Assembly (NCBI GenBank): GCA_022361195.1
Contig: JAKSBJ010000112.1
Location: 1 to 64,000, forward strand
Direction of reading: 5' to 3'
DNA: 64,000 bases
From: Flavobacteriales bacterium
GTDB taxonomy: Bacteria > Bacteroidota > Bacteroidia > Flavobacteriales_D > Crocinitomicaceae
The position numbers and the translations under genes are program-made. Positions 31,892 to 40,043 of the stretch are shown here, in pieces. The notes beneath the pieces were generated by a model that saw only the letters and a list, made by a program, of their open reading frames with translations, was not told where the DNA came from and made no database searches. The number at the start of each line of letters is the position of its first letter. Positions within the stretch are counted from its first letter, which is position 1.

Positions 31892-32066
31892 GGTGATAAA
31901 TTTTGGTGCATTAAAGATATTAATTCAAACCAGTTGGTTTTAAAAAGTATTTTAAGCGGTAATATTTAAAGTTCTAATGTAAAATGAGGGGATGAACAAA
32001 TGGTTACATCACCGGGCGAATTATCCTAAAATTTAACCAACCATAAATTTTTTTTTATTCCGAATA

Positions 32067-32090
32067 GGGGGAAACTTATTTTCGATTGTC
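32067..32090 (+). promoter_or_regulatory. ECF-type promoter motif upstream of the GIN-domain gene
   Basis: AATAGGGGG, a 14-nt spacer, then TTGTC. GTC lies 16 nt after the G-run, the usual ECF -35/-10 spacing. The same motif with the same spacing occurs at 33481-33506 and 36467-36492 in this window. Confidence 0.6.
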
Positions 32091-32120
32091 TTAGAGAAAA
32101 CGACAATGAAATTTTATATC

Positions 32121-32852
32121 ATGAAAACAATTAAAATAACAATACTTGCAGTCTTATTAGGAGCCGGATTTACATCTTGTAAAAAGGGAGGTGTCTTTTG
32201 CTATAAGAATGATGGGGATTCCATCACAGAAACGCGAAGCCTATCTGATTTTGACGAAGTTGCTCTAAGCATGTCATCCACTGTAAATATTGTACAGGGG
32301 CCCGAATCAAAAGTAACCATTACAGCCAGTGAAAATGTGATGGAGATTATCGAAACCAAGGTAAAAGGAGACGTCTTGGAGATTGATGTGAAAAAAGGAA
32401 AATGCTTAAAGGGTAAAAACGACATTATTTTTGACGTTGAGACACCTAATCTTGAGGGTATTATTATTTCGGGGTCAGGAGATGTAAATGTGAAAAACAA
32501 ATTAATCACCAATGCTTTGGATGTAGTAATTAGTGGAAGTGGTGATGTGGATTTAGACAGTTTACAAACCAACTCAATGTCTACTACCATTTCCGGATCG
32601 GGAGAGTTGGATGTTCGTACAATAGCAGCTATGAACCATCATGATATTGTGATTAGTGGATCAGGAGAAATTCATGCCTTTTATGCAGAAGCATTGGAAT
32701 GTGAAGTGGATATTTCAGGATCGGGAGATTGTAATGTGAATGTCATTAATAACTTAATAGCAACTATTTCGGGAAGTGGTGATGTTGTCTACAAGGGTAC
32801 ACCAAAAGTAGAATCAACTGTTTCGGGATCAGGATCAATAAGACCGTTCTAA
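32121..32852 (+). CDS. GIN domain (DUF2807) lipoprotein
   Basis: Start at 32121 (243 aa): lipoprotein signal MKTIKITILAVLLGAGFTSC. The mature part is the GIN domain, a right-handed beta-helix with the repeated motif ISGSGD (six or more copies: SGSGDVNV, SGSGDVDL, SGSGELDV, SGSGEIHA, SGSGDCNV, SGSGDVVY, SGSGSIRP). The fold is shared with adhesin-like proteins, but the family function is unknown. Its own ECF-type promoter lies at 32067-32090, so it is likely controlled by the sigma factor encoded just downstream. A terminator follows its stop. Confidence 0.88.
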   Translation: MKTIKITILAVLLGAGFTSCKKGGVFCYKNDGDSITETRSLSDFDEVALSMSSTVNIVQGPESKVTITASENVMEIIETKVKGDVLEIDVKKGKCLKGKNDIIFDVETPNLEGIIISGSGDVNVKNKLITNALDVVISGSGDVDLDSLQTNSMSTTISGSGELDVRTIAAMNHHDIVISGSGEIHAFYAEALECEVDISGSGDCNVNVINNLIATISGSGDVVYKGTPKVESTVSGSGSIRPF

Positions 32853-32867
32853 ATAGTTCTATATCAT

Positions 32868-32906
32868 AATCAAAGGGGGTGATTTCTTTCCCTATCCCCT
32901 TTGATT
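32868..32906 (+). terminator. Terminator after the GIN gene, overlapping the sigma-factor promoter region
   Basis: AATCAAAGGGG (32868-32878) pairs with CCCCTTTGATT (32896-32906), 11 bp, followed by CTTTAACTTT. A -7-like box of the next gene starts only 4 nt after the stem. Confidence 0.6.
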
Positions 32907-32909
32907 CTT

Positions 32910-32917
32910 TAACTTTG
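32910..32917 (+). promoter_or_regulatory. Possible housekeeping -7 box of the sigma-factor gene
   Basis: TAACTTTG matches TAnnTTTG exactly and ends 8 nt before the TTG start at 32926, implying a leader of only a few nucleotides. No ECF motif is found here. Confidence 0.4.
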
Positions 32918-32925
32918 TCACTGTT

Positions 32926-33480
32926 TTGGACAAGCAGCAAGAAACAATTAACCTGACCGATTTTGAGACCCTGTTTAAGCGTCACTATGCTGAGCTGTGT
33001 GGTTTTGCCAATAAATATCTGGAAGATTTAGAGGCGGCGGAAGAAGTGGTTCAGGCTTTTTTTGTGAAATTATGGGAAAACAAAGAAAAGCTGCAGGAGA
33101 TACAATCTGTACGATCTTATTTATTCTCGTCCGTTAAAAATGCTTGTTACAATCAGTTAAAGCACATCAAAATCAGGGAAGAATACAAAGCTCATAATCA
33201 GCGTGAGATGGATCAGGAAAAAAACAATGTGGAGGATGAATTTGCTGCCAGTGAACTGGAAGACAAAATTCGTCAGTCCATTGATAGACTTCCCGAAGGC
33301 CGAAGAAAGATTTTTATCATGAGCCGCTTTGAGGGATTGAAATATAAAGAGATAGCAGAAAAATTAAATATTAGTATAAAAACAGTTGAAAATCAAATGG
33401 GTAGTGCCATTAAACACTTAAAAACAGATTTGGCAGATTACATTTTATTCCTGGCACTGGCCTTTTTTATTTCGGGCTAA
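32926..33480 (+). CDS. ECF-type RNA polymerase sigma factor, TTG start
   Basis: This 184-residue protein has sigma region 2 (FKRHYAELCGFANKYL...AEEVVQAFFVKLW, residues about 15-52) and region 4 (RLPEGRRKIFIMSRFEGLKYKEIAEKLNISIKTVE, about 123-157, quoted in parts) with its helix-turn-helix. It is of the Bacteroidota 'sigma-70 family, expansion' type that pairs with FecR. Only a TTG start (32926) gives a full region 2. The final helix (YILFLALAFFISG) is hydrophobic, which is typical of this group. It precedes the anti-sigma gene by about 60 nt. Confidence 0.9.
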   Translation: MDKQQETINLTDFETLFKRHYAELCGFANKYLEDLEAAEEVVQAFFVKLWENKEKLQEIQSVRSYLFSSVKNACYNQLKHIKIREEYKAHNQREMDQEKNNVEDEFAASELEDKIRQSIDRLPEGRRKIFIMSRFEGLKYKEIAEKLNISIKTVENQMGSAIKHLKTDLADYILFLALAFFISG

Positions 33481-33506
33481 TAGGGGTAAATTGCGTTTGA
33501 ATTGTC
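33481..33506 (+). promoter_or_regulatory. ECF-type promoter motif upstream of the anti-sigma gene
   Basis: AATAGGGGT (beginning in the sigma stop codon), 14-nt spacer, TTGTC at 33502-33506. Same spacing as the other two copies. It would add independent transcription of the anti-sigma gene and its downstream neighbour. Confidence 0.6.
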
Positions 33507-33542
33507 ATCTTATTGACGATGGATATGAAAGGAGAAATAGAA

Positions 33543-34544
33543 ATGAACGATTCCGTTTTGATGGCTTACATCAATGATGAGCTGTCTGCTGAGGCAAAAG
33601 CTTCTGTGGATCGTTGGTTATTGGCCTCCGATCAAAACATGAGTCATTTTAATCAGTTAAAATCCAGTTGGGAATTAACGGGCGAATTGGATCCACACCC
33701 CGTTGCAGTTGATACGGATAAAGCCTGGGATAAGGTTTTGAATCAAATTAGCAGCAAAGAAGAAAAAGTAATTCCTTTAAAACCATCTGGCTTTAACAGA
33801 AGATGGATTGGAATTGCCGCCGGAATTGTGATTTTATTGGGTGTTTTCTCCATCTTTAAATTTATTGGAGGAGAAAATCCTGAAGGAGGAACGTTGGTTT
33901 CTTCCAATTCAATACTTGTTGATACTCTAGGAGATGGATCTATCATCTCTCTCAACGAAAATTCGAGTTTAGCCTACTCAGGAGATTTTAATGATGAAGA
34001 ACGAAGAGTTGAATTGAGTGGAGAAGCCTTTTTTGAGGTAGAACGAAACGAAAGCAAACCTTTTATTGTTGACTTACATTACGATTCTTACGTTCGGGTT
34101 TTAGGAACCTCTTTTAATATTAAAGCCCTTGAAGGTGATAGTTTAACTGAGGTCTCGGTAAAAAGTGGAAAAGTAGAGTTTGGATCGGAAAAAGAAAAAG
34201 TGATTCTAACCGCAGGACAAGCGGCAGTTATGAATCATCATACCGGAAAAATTACGCGCTTAGATGATGTCTCAACCATGGTAAACCTTTATTGGTTGGA
34301 TAGGCAGTTGGAGTTTGATGCCGTTAATTTAATTGATGTCGTAGAGATTTTAAATGGAATCTTTGCGGCTGAAGTGGTTTTAGAATGTCCATTAATGGCT
34401 GATGAGCTTATCCGAACTTCGCATGATAAAGATGAATCAATCGAAGATGTCCTTGACGTAATTGCAGAGGTACACGGATTAAACGTCCAAAAAAATCAAA
34501 CCGAAGGTGGCGACACCTACACCCTATCTTGTGATGAACTTTAA
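33543..34544 (+). CDS. FecR family anti-sigma factor
   Basis: I start at 33543 (333 aa) because AAAGGAGAA (33528-33536) forms a rare, clear ribosome-binding site 7 nt upstream; earlier in-frame ATG/TTG codons overlap it. The N-terminal cytoplasmic anti-sigma region (MAYINDELSAEAKASVDRWL) is followed by one transmembrane helix (RRWIGIAAGIVILLGVFSIF), a periplasmic FecR domain (GDGSIISLNENSSLAYSGDF... KPFIVD) and a C-terminal DUF4974 domain. It is expected to hold the neighbouring sigma factor until a surface signal arrives. Confidence 0.9.
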   Translation: MNDSVLMAYINDELSAEAKASVDRWLLASDQNMSHFNQLKSSWELTGELDPHPVAVDTDKAWDKVLNQISSKEEKVIPLKPSGFNRRWIGIAAGIVILLGVFSIFKFIGGENPEGGTLVSSNSILVDTLGDGSIISLNENSSLAYSGDFNDEERRVELSGEAFFEVERNESKPFIVDLHYDSYVRVLGTSFNIKALEGDSLTEVSVKSGKVEFGSEKEKVILTAGQAAVMNHHTGKITRLDDVSTMVNLYWLDRQLEFDAVNLIDVVEILNGIFAAEVVLECPLMADELIRTSHDKDESIEDVLDVIAEVHGLNVQKNQTEGGDTYTLSCDEL

Positions 34545-36450
34545 ACGGCTGATTGTATTGGTTTTTTTATTGGTTCCGTTGGGTTTACAAGCCCGAACAG
34601 GAATTTTGGACAAGATCATTTCAGTTGAAATAAAGAACACTCCCATACGGCTAATCCTTCAAAAAATTGAAACTGTCGGCCAGGTAAGATTCTCTTACAA
34701 TCCGCAGTTGGTTGAAGAAGATAAAATTGTCAGTTTAAGTATGAAATCCAGGACCATTCGATATGGTCTTTCTTTGATTTTTGACGAAACCATCCGCTTT
34801 AAAGAAGTAGGTAACCACATTGTTTTACTTGAGAACGAAAGTCCAGAACTAATCCGTGAACGAAAGAAACTCAAGCTCAACTATATCTTTAAAGGAAAAA
34901 TTACCGATAAACGAAGTGGAAAAAGCATCTCTAATGCCAGTATTTACGAAGTAGATAGTCGCCACACTTCCATTTCATCCGCCACTGGAGAATACGAACT
35001 TTTAATTCCTAAAACCACCCAGGTAAAGAGTTTATACTTTGGTAAGAAAGGTTATCACGATACCGTAATTGTTGTAAAAGCCACCGAAACTGAATCCGTT
35101 CAAATTGATATTGCCCTTGTACCCATTGAAAAAGATATCAGTAAAATAGATCCGAGCGAAATTAAACCCATCAGTAATCAACCTATTGAAGAACGGATTT
35201 TCTCCGGAATCATGATCTCTGATGAAACCTATCACCATTCCGAAAACCTCTCGGAATTAGACGAAACTCGTTGGGCTCAAATTTCCTTGGTACCGTCCGT
35301 AAGTATCGGATCCGACCTCTCCACAAAAGGATTAATTACCAACCACTTTTCACTCAATGTTCTTGCAGGCTATTCAAATGGCGTTTACGGAGTAGAAGTT
35401 GGCGGAATTTTAAACATTAACAAAGGAAATGTTTGGGGTGCACAAGTGGGCGGAATCAGTAATATGGTAGGTGGCAATGTCACTGGATTTCAAGGCGCCG
35501 GAATTGTCAATTTAGTAAAAGGAGATTTTTATGGTGCACAAGTAGGAGGAATCGCCAATTTGATTCAAGGAAACTACAGAGGAGTACAGGTGGGAGGAAT
35601 TAGTAGTATTGTAAAACGAGACTTTATTGGCGTACAGGTTGGTGGAATTACCGCTATTAGCCGTGGTGGTTTTTATGGCATTCAATTAGGCGGAATTAGC
35701 AGTGTCACTTTTGAAAAATTCATTGGATTTCAAATTGGTGGAATTCACAACATTGCTCGCGACAGTTTTTATGGCGGACAAATAGCGGGTATCTCCAATC
35801 ATTCCGGCGGAACCCAAAACTTCCTTCAAATTGCCGGAATTTCCAATTACTCCAAAGGAAATATGGGTTTACAACTTGGTGGAATTGTCAACTATACCCA
35901 GGAAAACAAAGGTTTGCAAATAGGATTGGTTAACATTAGCCGAAGAGGAAATGGAGTAGCTCTTGGGCTTTTTAATTTTGTACGAGAAGGATATCATAAA
36001 ACGGAGATTTTTACTGATGAACTTTTTCACCTCAACCTGGCCGTTAAAACCGGCTCTCAACGATTTTATAACATCTATACCGCTGGTATGCGTTTTGGCT
36101 TAGGGCAGCAAAATAATATGTACACAGTTGGGATGGGATTTGGAACCTATTTTAACCTCTCCGAAAAACTCATGACCAGTTTAGATTTTACCGGAAAAAT
36201 TGCCGTTGAAAATAATTTCTCCTCCCTCAATTTTGCATCCCTCTATCAATTTTCACCTACCCTGGATTTTAAAGCCGCCAAATGGATTACCTTATTCGCG
36301 GGACCTTCTGTCAACGTTAACGTCATGCAATTTCAGGACGCTGAAGGTAATTATAGCTCCGATGCCGTTTGGAATCCTATCTATACAGAATCCTTTACTG
36401 GCGGGAGTTTGCAGCTATGGCTGGGAGGTAAATTAGGAGTTAGACTATAA
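34534..36450 (+). CDS. STN-domain protein with 16-residue QxGGIxN surface repeats and C-terminal barrel-like domain
   Basis: The ATG at 34534 overlaps the anti-sigma stop by 11 bp (638 aa). After a signal peptide there is an STN domain (about 20-100: ...RLILQKIETVGQVRFSYN), a CarboxypepD_reg-like region, then about eleven tandem units of 16 residues, e.g. QVGGISNMVGGNVTGF, QVGGIANLIQGNYRGV (about 275-450). It ends in a barrel-like domain shared with the gene at 38880. The repeats resemble the surface-repeat family named after Leptospira LA_2272. STN domains bind the periplasmic side of TonB-linked signalling, so it may connect the sensor to the surface. Confidence 0.78.
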   Translation: MNFKRLIVLVFLLVPLGLQARTGILDKIISVEIKNTPIRLILQKIETVGQVRFSYNPQLVEEDKIVSLSMKSRTIRYGLSLIFDETIRFKEVGNHIVLLENESPELIRERKKLKLNYIFKGKITDKRSGKSISNASIYEVDSRHTSISSATGEYELLIPKTTQVKSLYFGKKGYHDTVIVVKATETESVQIDIALVPIEKDISKIDPSEIKPISNQPIEERIFSGIMISDETYHHSENLSELDETRWAQISLVPSVSIGSDLSTKGLITNHFSLNVLAGYSNGVYGVEVGGILNINKGNVWGAQVGGISNMVGGNVTGFQGAGIVNLVKGDFYGAQVGGIANLIQGNYRGVQVGGISSIVKRDFIGVQVGGITAISRGGFYGIQLGGISSVTFEKFIGFQIGGIHNIARDSFYGGQIAGISNHSGGTQNFLQIAGISNYSKGNMGLQLGGIVNYTQENKGLQIGLVNISRRGNGVALGLFNFVREGYHKTEIFTDELFHLNLAVKTGSQRFYNIYTAGMRFGLGQQNNMYTVGMGFGTYFNLSEKLMTSLDFTGKIAVENNFSSLNFASLYQFSPTLDFKAAKWITLFAGPSVNVNVMQFQDAEGNYSSDAVWNPIYTESFTGGSLQLWLGGKLGVRL

Positions 36451-36466
36451 TTTTTTAGATTCCCAA

Positions 36467-36492
36467 TAGGGGGTATTTCTTTTTGAGTTGTC
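36467..36492 (+). promoter_or_regulatory. ECF-type promoter motif upstream of the TonB-receptor-like gene
   Basis: AATAGGGGG at 36465-36473, 14-nt spacer, TTGTC at 36488-36492. Same arrangement as the motifs at 32067 and 33481. It lies about 30 nt before the ATG at 36522. Confidence 0.6.
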
Positions 36493-36521: not shown

Positions 36522-37361
36522 ATGAAAACCAAAAACTTCCTCCTCTTTTGTTTGTTCATCCTAACTGCTTCAGCCGTTTTTGGACAAAACTTAACACAAA
36601 CCGTTCGTGGAACTGTTATTGATTTTGATACGAAAGTTCCAGTAATTGGAGCTAAAGTAATTGTTGTTGACAGCACCCTTTCATTAGGAGCCATCTCAGA
36701 CGTTAACGGAGATTTTAAAATTGAAAATGTTCCGGTTGGAAGAATCCAATTACAAATTAACAGTGTCGGTTATCAGCTTATTAACCTTCCCAACATTTTA
36801 GTTGAATCGGGGAAAGAAAAAGTTTTGACACTGGAAATGGTAGAAGACATTCAAACCTTAAGCAAAGTCACCGTTACCAGCCAAAAAGATAAATCTGAAT
36901 CCATCAACAAAATGGCAACGGTAAGTGCCAAAACCTTTACAGTAGAGGAAACCAATCGTTATGCCGGAAGCTTGAACGATCCTGCCCGAATGGTTTCAGC
37001 CTTTGCGGGAGTTACTGGAAATGCAGAGGGAGATAATGACATTGTAGTAAGAGGAAATTCACCTCGAGGGATTTTATGGAGATTAGAAGGTATTGATATC
37101 CCCAACCCGAATCACTTTGCCGGAGAAGGTTCAACCGGAGGACCTGTAAATGCACTCAATGGCTCTATGCTGGCCAATTCTGATTTTTTCTCAGGGGCAT
37201 TTGCTCCAGAATATGGAAATGCTGTCTCAGGTGTTTTTGATGTGAAATTTCGCCAAGGGAATAATGAAAAAAGAGAGTATACTTTCTCGGCTGGTTTAAT
37301 GGGAATTGATGGAACTCTTGAAGGGCCATTCAAAAAGGCTACAGAGGATCTTATTTGGTGA
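36522..37361 (+). pseudogene. TonB-dependent receptor-like gene, N-terminal part before a frameshift
   Basis: Start at 36522: signal peptide (MKTKNFLLFCLFILTASAVFGQ, residues 1-22), a CarboxypepD_reg-like domain (VRGTVIDFDTKVPVIGAKV) and a TonB plug (MVSAFAGVTGNAEGDNDIVV; GILWRLEGIDIPNPNHFAGEG). The frame then leaves the conserved sequence and stops at 37361. Restoring one base in the run of five A residues (37332-37336) joins it exactly to the barrel encoded from 37355. It is either a true frameshift, an expression-control site or a sequencing error. Under its own ECF-type promoter. Confidence 0.8.
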
Positions 37362-38872
37362 ACTATCGCTATTCAACCGTCGCCTTACTTGATAAAGCCG
37401 GAATCTTAGACTTCTCAGGTATTCCAATTTATCAGGATGCCTCTTTCAAATTTGTTTTTCCAACTAAAAAAATGGGAACCTTCTCTTTGATTGGTTTAGG
37501 AGGATTAAGTAAAATCGTTCAAACCGATGAAGACGATTCTACCGGATTTGTACATGGTATTTACGATTACAAAGCTGGAATGGGAGTAGCTGGATTGAAG
37601 CACACTTACATTGTTAGTCCAAAGATTTATGTTAAAAGTTATGTCGCTGCCATGAATTCGCACAGTGGAGGAGAAGGACAGTTTTTAAACTCGGACAGCG
37701 TGCTTTTTCTATCAGAAAGAGAAAAATTTCAGGATAACAAAATCAAAGCTCAAACTATCATCAACTACAAGTTGAATAAAAAGAACATGTTTCAGGTTGG
37801 TGGAACTTACACCTTTTTGAACTACGATTTCTTTTATGAAGACGATTACGATGATGAAGATGGGATAATGACCCGTCATCTAAATTCAAAAGGAAATGCT
37901 GACATGATGCAATCTTTTGTTAGTTGGAAGTATAGAATCAATAACGACCTAACCATTGTTTCGGGATTGCACCACACTCATTTTTTCCTCAACGGGAATT
38001 ATGCTATTGAACCCCGACTTGGAGCTAAATGGCAACTGAATCCGCGTAACAACATCTCATTGGGTTATGGAATGCACAGCAAAATGGAAAGTGTTTCGAC
38101 CTATTTGTACAATGAGTTGCAAGAAAACGGTGAATACTATTATCCAAACCGTAATCTCGACTTCTCGAAAAGTATGCACTTTGTAGCTGGGTATGGTTTG
38201 CAACTTAACGAAAATCTGCACTTTAAAACAGAAGTTTATTACCAGCATCTTTACAACATTCCGGTTGAGAATGACAGTACCAGCTACTACTCCTTAATCA
38301 ACTCTAACCAAGGAATTCCTGACATTCCGCTTGTCAACAAAGGAACTGGAAGAAACTATGGAGCTGAATTGACCTTGGAGCGATTCTTCCACAACAACTT
38401 CTATTATCTCCTTACAGGATCCATTTATAAATCGCAATACACTGCTTTGGATGGAGTTGAACGAGACAGTCGTTACGACGCTAATTATGCTGCCAACCTG
38501 CTTCTTGGAAAAGAGTTTAAGATTGGTAAAAAGAAACGTAACAAAACGATTGGAATCAATACTAAAGTGTCATTTATCGGTGGAAACCGTTACACACCAA
38601 TTGACTTAGAAGCTTCTAACGCCGCCGGACACACCGTTAGAAAATGGGATGAGCCTTACTCTGTAAAAGGAGACAATGTTTTCTTTATCAACTTGGGAGT
38701 TACTTATCGGGTTGACATGAAGCGAGCAAGTCATTCCTTTAAAATCGACATTCAAAACCTCACCAATAACAAAGCTGTGGTTTCGGAATATTATAGTTCC
38801 CGAACACAATCAATTGTCCACAGCACTCAATTACCTATGATTCCAAATCTTGTTTACACCATTAAATTTTAA
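37355..38872 (+). pseudogene. TonB-dependent receptor-like gene, C-terminal barrel part after the frameshift
   Basis: This is the continuation of the receptor in another frame: about 505 residues of outer-membrane beta barrel, starting SYLVNYRYSTVALLDKAGI (frame-restored) and ending in a strand with a terminal Phe (LVYTIKF). There is no promoter, signal peptide or credible start codon of its own. Together the two parts would encode about 780 residues. It is followed 8 nt later by the second repeat-protein gene, so both are likely in one transcript. Confidence 0.8.
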
Positions 38873-38879
38873 CATTATC

Positions 38880-40043
38880 ATGAAGTACATTATTGCTTTA
38901 GCTTTTATTTACGGAGTAATTTTCGCCGCTGTCTCTCAAGAGAATGATAGCAGCAATTATAACCGTCCTTTTCAAGCCTCTGTTTTCTACCCTTTAGGAA
39001 CCAATGGTTTGGAATCACCTAAATACACCAACAATGTTTCTTTTAACCTCTTTTATGGCCTCAATGGTGGACTAAAGGGAATTGAATTTGGAGGATTGGT
39101 AAACTCTAACCTTGGAAAAGTACAAGGCGCTCAATTTGCCGGTATTGCCAACATCAACGCCGACAAGGTAAACGGAGCCATGTTTAGTGGCATTACCAAC
39201 ATTGCCAAAGATTCAAGCATTATCATTGCTGCAGCAGGAATCTCCAATGTTTTAGGGAATTCGAGTTATGGGCTATTAGCTGCAGGAATTTCCAATACGA
39301 CTAATGGAGACTTTTCAGGTGGGCAATTTGCCGGAATCACTAATCAAAACAATGGTGCTTTTATTGGAGGTCAGTTTGCTGGAATAACAAATGTTAACAA
39401 TGGTGATATGACCGGATTTCAAGCCGCTGGAATTTCCAATATCAATGCCGGGCATTTAACCGGAGCTCAAATTGGACTCATAAATCGTTCTAAAAAAGTA
39501 ACTGGGGCTCAAATTGGATTGGTCAATATATCCGACAGTATTAAAGGTGTTCCTATTGGATTGATTAATTACGTTCGTCAGGGTTATCATAGCTTTGAGT
39601 TTTACGGAAGTGAGTCCATTTACGCCAACATCAACTTTAAGTTGGGAGTAGAAAAACTCTACACCATTTACAAAGTAGGATACTTCAACAACAATGGAGA
39701 AAATTACCTCACTTACGGGTTAGGTTGGGGAAGCATGACCAGCATCAACGATCGTATTAAATTATCATTAGACCTGTCGGCTAACCACATTGTTCAGCAC
39801 AACAACAATCCCGATTTGGATTTATTAGCCAAAGGAGATCTAAACTTTCGTTTTGTGTTGAACAAGTACATTGATTTGTTTGTAGGGCCAAGCTTTAACA
39901 CTTACGTTGCAGAGTATGATGTAGATAGTGAAGCACCTCTTTTGAACGTTCCATACACCTTTTATGAAACCGATTGGTGGAATGGTAACGGAAGTACCTC
40001 CATTTGGATTGGAGCCAATGCCGGATTGGGAATTCGGTTTTAA
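38880..40043 (+). CDS. Exported protein with 16-residue surface repeats, paralogue of 34534
   Basis: Start at 38880 (387 aa) gives a signal peptide (MKYIIALAFIYGVIFAAVSQ). About ten units of the same 16-residue type follow (e.g. QFAGIANINADKVNGA, QFAGITNQNNGAFIGG, QAAGISNINAGHLTGA). The C-terminal third (GLINYVRQGYHSFEFYG...) is collinear with the C-terminal domain of the gene at 34534. It lacks the STN and carboxypeptidase-like domains. The function is unknown; a periplasmic or surface solenoid attached to a barrel is likely. Confidence 0.8.
   Translation: MKYIIALAFIYGVIFAAVSQENDSSNYNRPFQASVFYPLGTNGLESPKYTNNVSFNLFYGLNGGLKGIEFGGLVNSNLGKVQGAQFAGIANINADKVNGAMFSGITNIAKDSSIIIAAAGISNVLGNSSYGLLAAGISNTTNGDFSGGQFAGITNQNNGAFIGGQFAGITNVNNGDMTGFQAAGISNINAGHLTGAQIGLINRSKKVTGAQIGLVNISDSIKGVPIGLINYVRQGYHSFEFYGSESIYANINFKLGVEKLYTIYKVGYFNNNGENYLTYGLGWGSMTSINDRIKLSLDLSANHIVQHNNNPDLDLLAKGDLNFRFVLNKYIDLFVGPSFNTYVAEYDVDSEAPLLNVPYTFYETDWWNGNGSTSIWIGANAGLGIRF

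Follow-up and report, generated by a model that had tools for sequence, protein, structure and literature searches.

ECF sigma factors are numerous among Bacteroidota and few of them have assigned promoters; as stated in 2020, no motif was known for any ECF factor of B. thetaiotaomicron (PMC7366714). The closest described arrangement is that of FecI-FecR-FecA (Fec in E. coli, Fox in Pseudomonas), in which the neighbours of an ECF sigma factor are a FecR-type anti-sigma factor bearing a FecR_C domain and an STN-domain protein, the contact between FoxR and FoxA via STN-like domains having been described (PMC11637429). Within the phylum, SigP of Porphyromonas gingivalis is an ECF sigma factor acting on surface and secretion genes, with C(T)AAA(G/C/T)A(T)A(C)T(A/G)A as its suggested target (PMC4800418), and the SM6 motif of Flavobacterium psychrophilum is a predicted ECF-type promoter, associated with T9SS genes, whose -10 region contains a CGT box (PMC9723704). 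The Bacteroidetes sigma-70 subfamily TIGR02985 is a sequence class for which no promoter is described in the literature searched.

The locus compared with described systems

The locus studied here, contained in a 64-kb window (the whole stretch of DNA analysed), resembles the Fec systems in its central genes, all on the + strand. Its ECF sigma factor gene (32926-33480, TTG start) encodes both sigma region 2 (Sigma70_r2, PF04542) and region 4 (r4_2, PF08281), and its product reaches 182.5 bits against TIGR02985, over the curated cut-off of 126.4, being thus by sequence a member of that subfamily. Adjacent to it stands a gene for a FecR-type anti-sigma factor with a FecR_C domain (33519-34544; PF04773, E 1.2e-14; PF16344, E 5.5e-6), unlike the case of SigP, which is regulated by PorXY and not by FecR. 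The end of the FecR gene is overlapped by that of an exported protein (34534-36450) with a predicted N-terminal STN-like domain, a CarboxypepD-like domain and LA_2272 surface repeats. Within the family of this protein, STN (PF07660) is matched in two of six members (best 8.2e-7) and CarbopepD_reg_2 in five of six; in the window protein itself STN falls below the Pfam threshold and the LA_2272 repeat is matched, and a single-sequence AlphaFold model is poor, with a mean pLDDT of 38.7 and only the repeat stretch (residues ~280-440) at 56-83.

Further downstream, a TonB-dependent receptor gene (36522-38872, +; CarboxypepD_reg, Plug) is split here between two reading frames (36522-37361 and 37355-38872), its orthologs being single ORFs of ~780-800 aa. 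Probably transcribed together with it is the gene of another LA_2272-repeat exported protein (38880-40043, +; NF047436), found in the same place in loci L079-L084. Unlike in FecI-FecR-FecA, the STN domain would here be carried not by a TonB receptor but by a surface-repeat protein, and the nearby TonB receptor lacks it: no Plug match was obtained in 34534-36450 and no STN match in 36522-38872. Upstream of the sigma gene, a GIN-domain (DUF2807) lipoprotein is encoded at 32106-32852 (+; start at 32106 or 32121; PF10988, E 4.8e-41).

A two-block motif in the window and its genome

Three + strand sites in the window match AATAGGGGK-N14-TTGTC exactly, at 32063-32090, 33479-33506 and 36465-36492; they lie directly upstream of the GIN, FecR and TonB-receptor genes, at distances of 15, 12 and 29 nt, respectively, from motif to ATG. 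The copies read TAGGGGGAAACTTATTTTCGATTGTC (32065-32090), of which orthologous copies exist, TAGGGGTAAATTGCGTTTGAATTGTC (33481-33506), which abuts the sigma stop codon and keeps the same position in L081, L100 and L243, and TAGGGGGTATTTCTTTTTGAGTTGTC (36467-36492), with the same position in L079-L084. The three copies with identical spacing claimed by the initial annotation are thus present, and so is the spacing given for them, TTGTC following the G-run plus G/T after 14 nt and GTC after 16 nt; the coordinates it gave were off by at most two bases, register with the other copies requiring 32065 as the start of the first. Beyond these perfect copies, every site in the window has at least three mismatches, in agreement with the claim that no further copy is found there, and the 15 sites with up to three mismatches, vs 10.8 expected, are at chance level, the signal being the three perfect copies.

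Over the 5.43-Mb genome, AATAGGGG-N15-TTGTC occurs three times, on one strand and always at the sigma/FecR locus; a pattern search with gaps of 14-16 nt returned only these copies, and a control pattern read backwards gave no match on the forward strand and one on the reverse. The motif is therefore not scattered, a point on which the regulon proposed from the window depended. When the genome was searched with a profile built mostly from relatives' sites, the three window copies ranked 1-3, C339:11326 came next, and noise set in from E ~0.7. Two one-mismatch copies are located outside the window, at C3:14149 and C339:11352, each directly upstream of a gene for a predicted exported protein. Matches with two mismatches were discarded as noise, 112 in all vs 196 for the backwards pattern.

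The C3 copy precedes an outer-membrane/S41-peptidase operon that carries the motif, unlinked to the cluster, in each of the three genomes where the operon was found and is placed in the predicted regulon, to which the exported-protein/serine-hydrolase operon on C339 probably also belongs. The surrounding surface-protein genes, originally put forward as the regulon, would be part of it, the whole being larger than the cluster.

The motif in related clusters

Relatives share the signal TAGGGGTAAA-N7-TnTnAGTTGTC, with 17 nt from TAGGGG to GTC. Variants counted, it recurs before orthologous clusters, where the initial annotation had proposed to look for it, standing at the promoter position in 32 of the 34 related sigma/FecR/STN clusters of the order (those holding the STN partner); the two lacking a pattern match are L252, a contig fragment, and L247, which has near-matches only. 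When the gap k of TAGGGG-Nk-GTC was varied from 5 to 30 in 22 cluster loci, 44 matches were found at k=17 and 0-1 at each other k, with none at k=17 on the opposite strand, and 14 further clusters gave 20 matches on the coding strand vs 0 on the other. A spacing of 18 occurs naturally in some genomes. Among the genomes of the order, 19 of the 34 with the STN gene carry the strict motif, vs 6 of the 365 without it (Fisher 1.9e-18, inflated by kinship). Gene orders vary (GIN-sigma-FecR-STN-TBDR, sigma-FecR-STN-GIN-TBDR or TBDR-sigma-FecR-STN), and despite these changes the motif remains before GIN, TBDR, sigma or FecR; elsewhere in the class, other families have it before sigma, FecR, STN and TBDR. 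Its cores persist across genera, but the flanks do not.

On the sigma tree, the motif label requires 4 changes vs 17.8 in shuffles. The loci of the closest sister sigma group, L103-L105, as well as those of L106 and L107, lack the motif; L102, too, is devoid of it, although weakly placed within the motif clade. Two kinds of candidate were rejected: TAGGGGTAA matches from remote families (L223-L229) of the same phylum, which have no linked cluster genes and were taken as chance or coding, and an L098 site (TAGGGGTTTT...AAAGTC) situated 422 nt before its sigma frame.

As initially annotated, the sigma gene of the window lacks the motif and has instead a TAnnTTTG box, TAACTTTG, at 32910-32917 (+), the predicted primary-sigma promoter of the gene. 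Ahead of this box, a hairpin with a 14-bp stem (32868-32906, +; -21.4 kcal/mol for 86 nt, z -3.3) forms a probable terminator, leaky or full, between GIN and sigma, where hairpin-like inverted repeats are also visible in L079, L080 and L100. A TAnnTTTG box precedes the sigma gene at 12 of 18 relatives' loci vs 0.88 expected, which favours the suggested housekeeping promoter, but the missing autoregulation does not hold throughout: several relatives have the motif immediately ahead of sigma, and in many of these the TAnnTTTG box comes after it. The lack of autoregulation is lineage-specific, other genera too having the motif before sigma. Transcription from the GIN promoter may also read through the hairpin into the window sigma gene.

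Reading as an ECF promoter and proposed circuit

The motif displays two blocks, a fixed spacing near 16 nt, a GTC-like -10, a short distance to the gene and directionality, and reads best, as judged by sequence comparison, as a promoter recognised by RNA polymerase with the ECF sigma factor of 32926-33480; sigma binding and transcription starts at these sites are predicted. Considering that the motif (i) is not scattered, (ii) stands before orthologous clusters, (iii) tracks the sigma clade and not its paralogs, and (iv) keeps a fixed ECF-type spacing, the ECF regulon first proposed for this sigma is supported. The promoter sequence, TAGGGGTAA/TTGTC, and the absence of direct autoregulation of the window sigma are differences from FecI-FecR-FecA; the TTGTC of this promoter, with an upstream TAGGGG element, is unlike the CGT box described for SM6 (PMC9723704), and the promoter is also unlike the target suggested for SigP.

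The promoter might be real and nonetheless be read by several related FecI-like sigma factors, with overlapping regulons and shared sites. With 47 sigma-70-type region-4 matches encoded in the genome, another sigma might read this site as well; the recognition helix of the sister paralogs is similar (KTVENQMG), and an overlap of ECF regulons has been discussed for F. psychrophilum (PMC9723704). However, the sister loci L103-L107 are entirely without the motif and the three strict genome copies all lie beside the 32926 sigma, so that such sharing seems rather unlikely. Still less probable is that a separate activator or repressor binds the motif and counts the sigma gene merely among its targets: the pairing of sigma and motif does come from sequence comparison, and the conserved blocks, separated by 17 nt, might be the halves of an operator, but the motif is non-palindromic and oriented relative to the gene at every locus, it lies close to starts and has an ECF-like spacing and a GTC -10, and the clusters showed no other conserved regulator gene, while sigma adjoins the motif in nearly all cases. 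Recent duplication of a sequence devoid of regulatory role would explain the identical cores of the three copies, and is scarcely credible given that their spacers and flanks differ, that the cores and not the flanks are conserved across genera in promoter position, and that the OM/S41 copies are unlinked.

Under the ECF-promoter reading, the promoter would comprise a -35-like TAGGGGTAA and a -10-like TTGTC, with 16 nt between TAGGGG and TGTC. Without signal, the sigma factor would be held by the membrane anti-sigma FecR, whose C-terminal domain would be contacted by an outer-membrane transducer, the surface-repeat protein with the predicted STN domain, whose gene comes next after that of FecR. 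Once triggered, this transducer would cause the sigma to be freed, and GIN, FecR with the STN protein, the TonB receptor with the repeat protein, and at least two unlinked operons would be switched on. The sigma gene itself would be expressed at a basal level from the TAnnTTTG promoter behind the hairpin; since FecR would be induced and sigma not, negative feedback is expected in this species. Taken as a whole, from promoter, sigma, FecR and transducer to regulon and basal sigma expression, the circuit is held to be very probable.

Elsewhere, S41 peptidases of the Prc and CtpA family process FecR-type anti-sigma factors. A Bacteroidia-wide mode of signalling, combining a non-transporter STN surface-repeat transducer, the promoter code TAGGGGTAA/TTGTC and, in some regulons, an S41 peptidase, possibly for feedback, can be suggested only tentatively and is somewhat doubtful.

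The distinctive switch sequence apparently has not been reported before: no report of the element was found in the literature, and a search by its letters returned unrelated sequences only, a prior listing being possible in the group tables of the ECF classification, which lay outside the search. Sequence alone here connects a sigma clade with its promoter and targets across many genera, with autoregulation rewired by lineage, and the locus points to a signalling partner that is no TonB receptor. The circuit can now be predicted in other genomes and is directly testable in cultured relatives.

Motif copies in the window and their consensus

The three same-spaced copies of an ECF-type motif proposed in the initial annotation were borne out: AATAGGGG, followed by G or T, 14 nt and TTGTC, is matched exactly on the + strand at 32063-32090, 33479-33506 and 36465-36492 (motifs 1, 2 and 3), ending 15, 12 and 29 nt, respectively, from the first plausible ATG, with the sigma stop codon immediately preceding motif 2. 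The same annotation had noticed no further copy, and all other places in the window indeed have at least three mismatches, three-mismatch matches being at chance level. Throughout the own genome (5.43 Mb), AATAGGGG-N14-16-TTGTC occurs three times, always at this locus, and a backwards-read control pattern matches once. A profile built on 35 sites, 32 from relatives, ranked the window's sites 1-3, partly by construction as they are within the profile, of which the pattern search is independent; rank 4 was C339:11326, elsewhere in the genome (E 3e-4), and the next match was noise (E 0.7).

Among 22 cluster loci, TAGGGG-Nk-GTC gave 44 matches at k=17, at most one at every other k from 5 to 30, and zero k=17 matches on the opposite strand; two or three of the 44 are unlikely to be promoters, for example L079:7003, which falls within a gene. 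The consensus of 35 sites reads AATAGGGGTAAA-n-T-nn-TT-n-T-n-AGTTGTCATA and shows no variation in TAGGGG or TGTC; TAGGGG and GTC were imposed by the site search, so that only the remaining positions are informative. Variants seen among fourteen further clusters include TAGGGGTC and, in genus g44, TAAGGG with GTGTC; in these loci all 20 matches of TA(G/A)GGG-N17/18-GTC lie on the cluster coding strand. Both sites show a natural spacing shift in two genomes of genus g18 (L244, L245), with a spacer of 18 rather than 17 nt.

Cluster genes, gene orders and the STN partner

The window cluster comprises genes for a GIN lipoprotein (DUF2807), the ECF sigma, FecR, an STN-like exported protein, a TonB receptor (TBDR) and a second LA_2272 repeat protein. 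The long exported protein after FecR combines an STN-like domain, a carboxypeptidase-regulatory-like domain and LA_2272 surface repeats; its start codon lies within the FecR 3' end (11-nt overlap, 34534-34544), an arrangement that suggests translational coupling. The TonB-receptor gene is broken across two reading frames at 37355-37361, through either a genuine frameshift or misassembly, its orthologs being single ORFs of ~780-800 aa.

In related clusters, reached via FecR orthologs in the family, the motif recurs before cluster genes in three orders: type A, the window's (motif-GIN-sigma-FecR-STN-motif-TBDR), with an additional motif ahead of FecR in the window, L081 and L100; type B (motif-sigma-FecR-STN-motif-GIN-TBDR; L086-L090, L092, L093, L095); and motif-TBDR-sigma-FecR-STN (L183, named a Cytophagales MAG, and L243). 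Unlike complete type B loci, L085 showed no receptor downstream of GIN, and the L096 sequence ends after STN. The genes are rearranged between relatives, yet the motif keeps its place upstream of them. In other families of the class, a phylum-wide sample placed the strict motif immediately upstream of sigma (L215, L219, L231, L232, L234), FecR (L216) or TBDR (L230), or adjoining STN genes (L213, L214). Three loci from such families (L212, L217, L218) carry the motif before a conserved ~206-aa exported protein with a common GYGAI(S/T)N stretch and no assigned function.

Across the order, 34 of 399 genomes contain the STN partner gene. The strict motif TAGGGGTAA-N12-TTGTC occurs in 19/34 genomes with it versus 6/365 without (Fisher 1.9e-18, inflated as the genomes are related), 28 of 42 strict matches being no more than 6 kb away from the STN gene. 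Counting variants, 32/34 STN clusters carry the motif; by pattern it is missing from L252, a truncated contig, and L247, with near-matches only (e.g., TAGGGT...CGTTGTC).

Probable cognate sigma factor and predicted distant targets

Attribution of the motif to the sigma at 32926 is not automatic, because the own genome has 47 sigma region-4 matches. When 54 sigmas are placed on a tree, 4 changes account for the motif label, versus 17.8 with shuffled labels; two labelled rows are unrelated sigmas that happen to sit close to a cluster. The motif is absent from the closest sister group with FecR and TonB receptor (L103-L105), as well as from L106 and L107, and L102, weakly placed inside the motif clade, also lacks it.

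Two one-mismatch copies lie elsewhere in the own genome: C3:14149, ahead of an outer-membrane-like (OM) gene with an S41 peptidase gene behind it, and C339:11352, ahead of an exported-protein gene and then a gene for a beta-lactamase-family hydrolase. The cluster-unlinked OM/S41 (Tricorn_C1) operon has the motif in 3/3 genomes found with it (L004:4150-6054, L235:615-2502, L236:602-2481). This operon provides an independent test: a search of 13 relatives gave a close S41 ortholog with an OM gene ahead in G004 and G005 only (38 % identity each), and in both the motif lies immediately upstream of that OM gene. At L005:4069-5853, a perfect TAGGGG-N15-TTGTC stands 18 nt upstream of the start of a 190-aa exported protein, behind which comes a lipoprotein hydrolase of the beta-lactamase family. 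The S41 proteases Prc and CtpA take part in FoxR-type signalling in Pseudomonas (PMC11637429), and we would guess that the S41 peptidase here might act in signalling feedback.

Sigma gene expression and proposed signalling

Housekeeping expression of a sigma gene devoid of the ECF motif, as initially proposed, holds for the window but not as a general rule, type B loci having the motif ahead of sigma, mostly with a TAnnTTTG box right behind; in those lineages the sigma gene would therefore be autoregulated as well. In this phylum the -7 box of primary-sigma promoters reads TAnnTTTG (PMC9723704, PMC7366714). Such a box occurs within 110 nt upstream of the conserved sigma domain in 12/18 relatives versus 0.88 expected, and 47-52 nt upstream of the same sigma residue in 6/8 type A loci. 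In the window, a TAACTTTG box lies 8 nt upstream of the sigma's TTG start, a hairpin upstream of the gene reaches -21.4 kcal/mol (z -3.3), and read-through from GIN may also contribute to expression. A box just 5-8 nt upstream of predicted TTG/GTG starts (window 32910-32928; L080, L100) suggests, from sequence, leaderless sigma mRNA with non-ATG starts.

The motif was not found described in open papers, ECF classification supplements being outside that search, and is apparently an unreported putative promoter element within known FecR/ECF-type signalling. In such signalling, FecR is known to hold the sigma and to receive its signal from an STN domain on an outer-membrane protein. A domain search found no STN domain in the window's TonB receptor, the STN-like domain being on the separate repeat protein; this is therefore a split form, in which the repeat protein would be the outer-membrane transducer signalling to FecR. 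In the window, an ECF promoter on FecR but not on sigma, present in only some type A loci (also L081 and L100), would be predicted to provide negative feedback.
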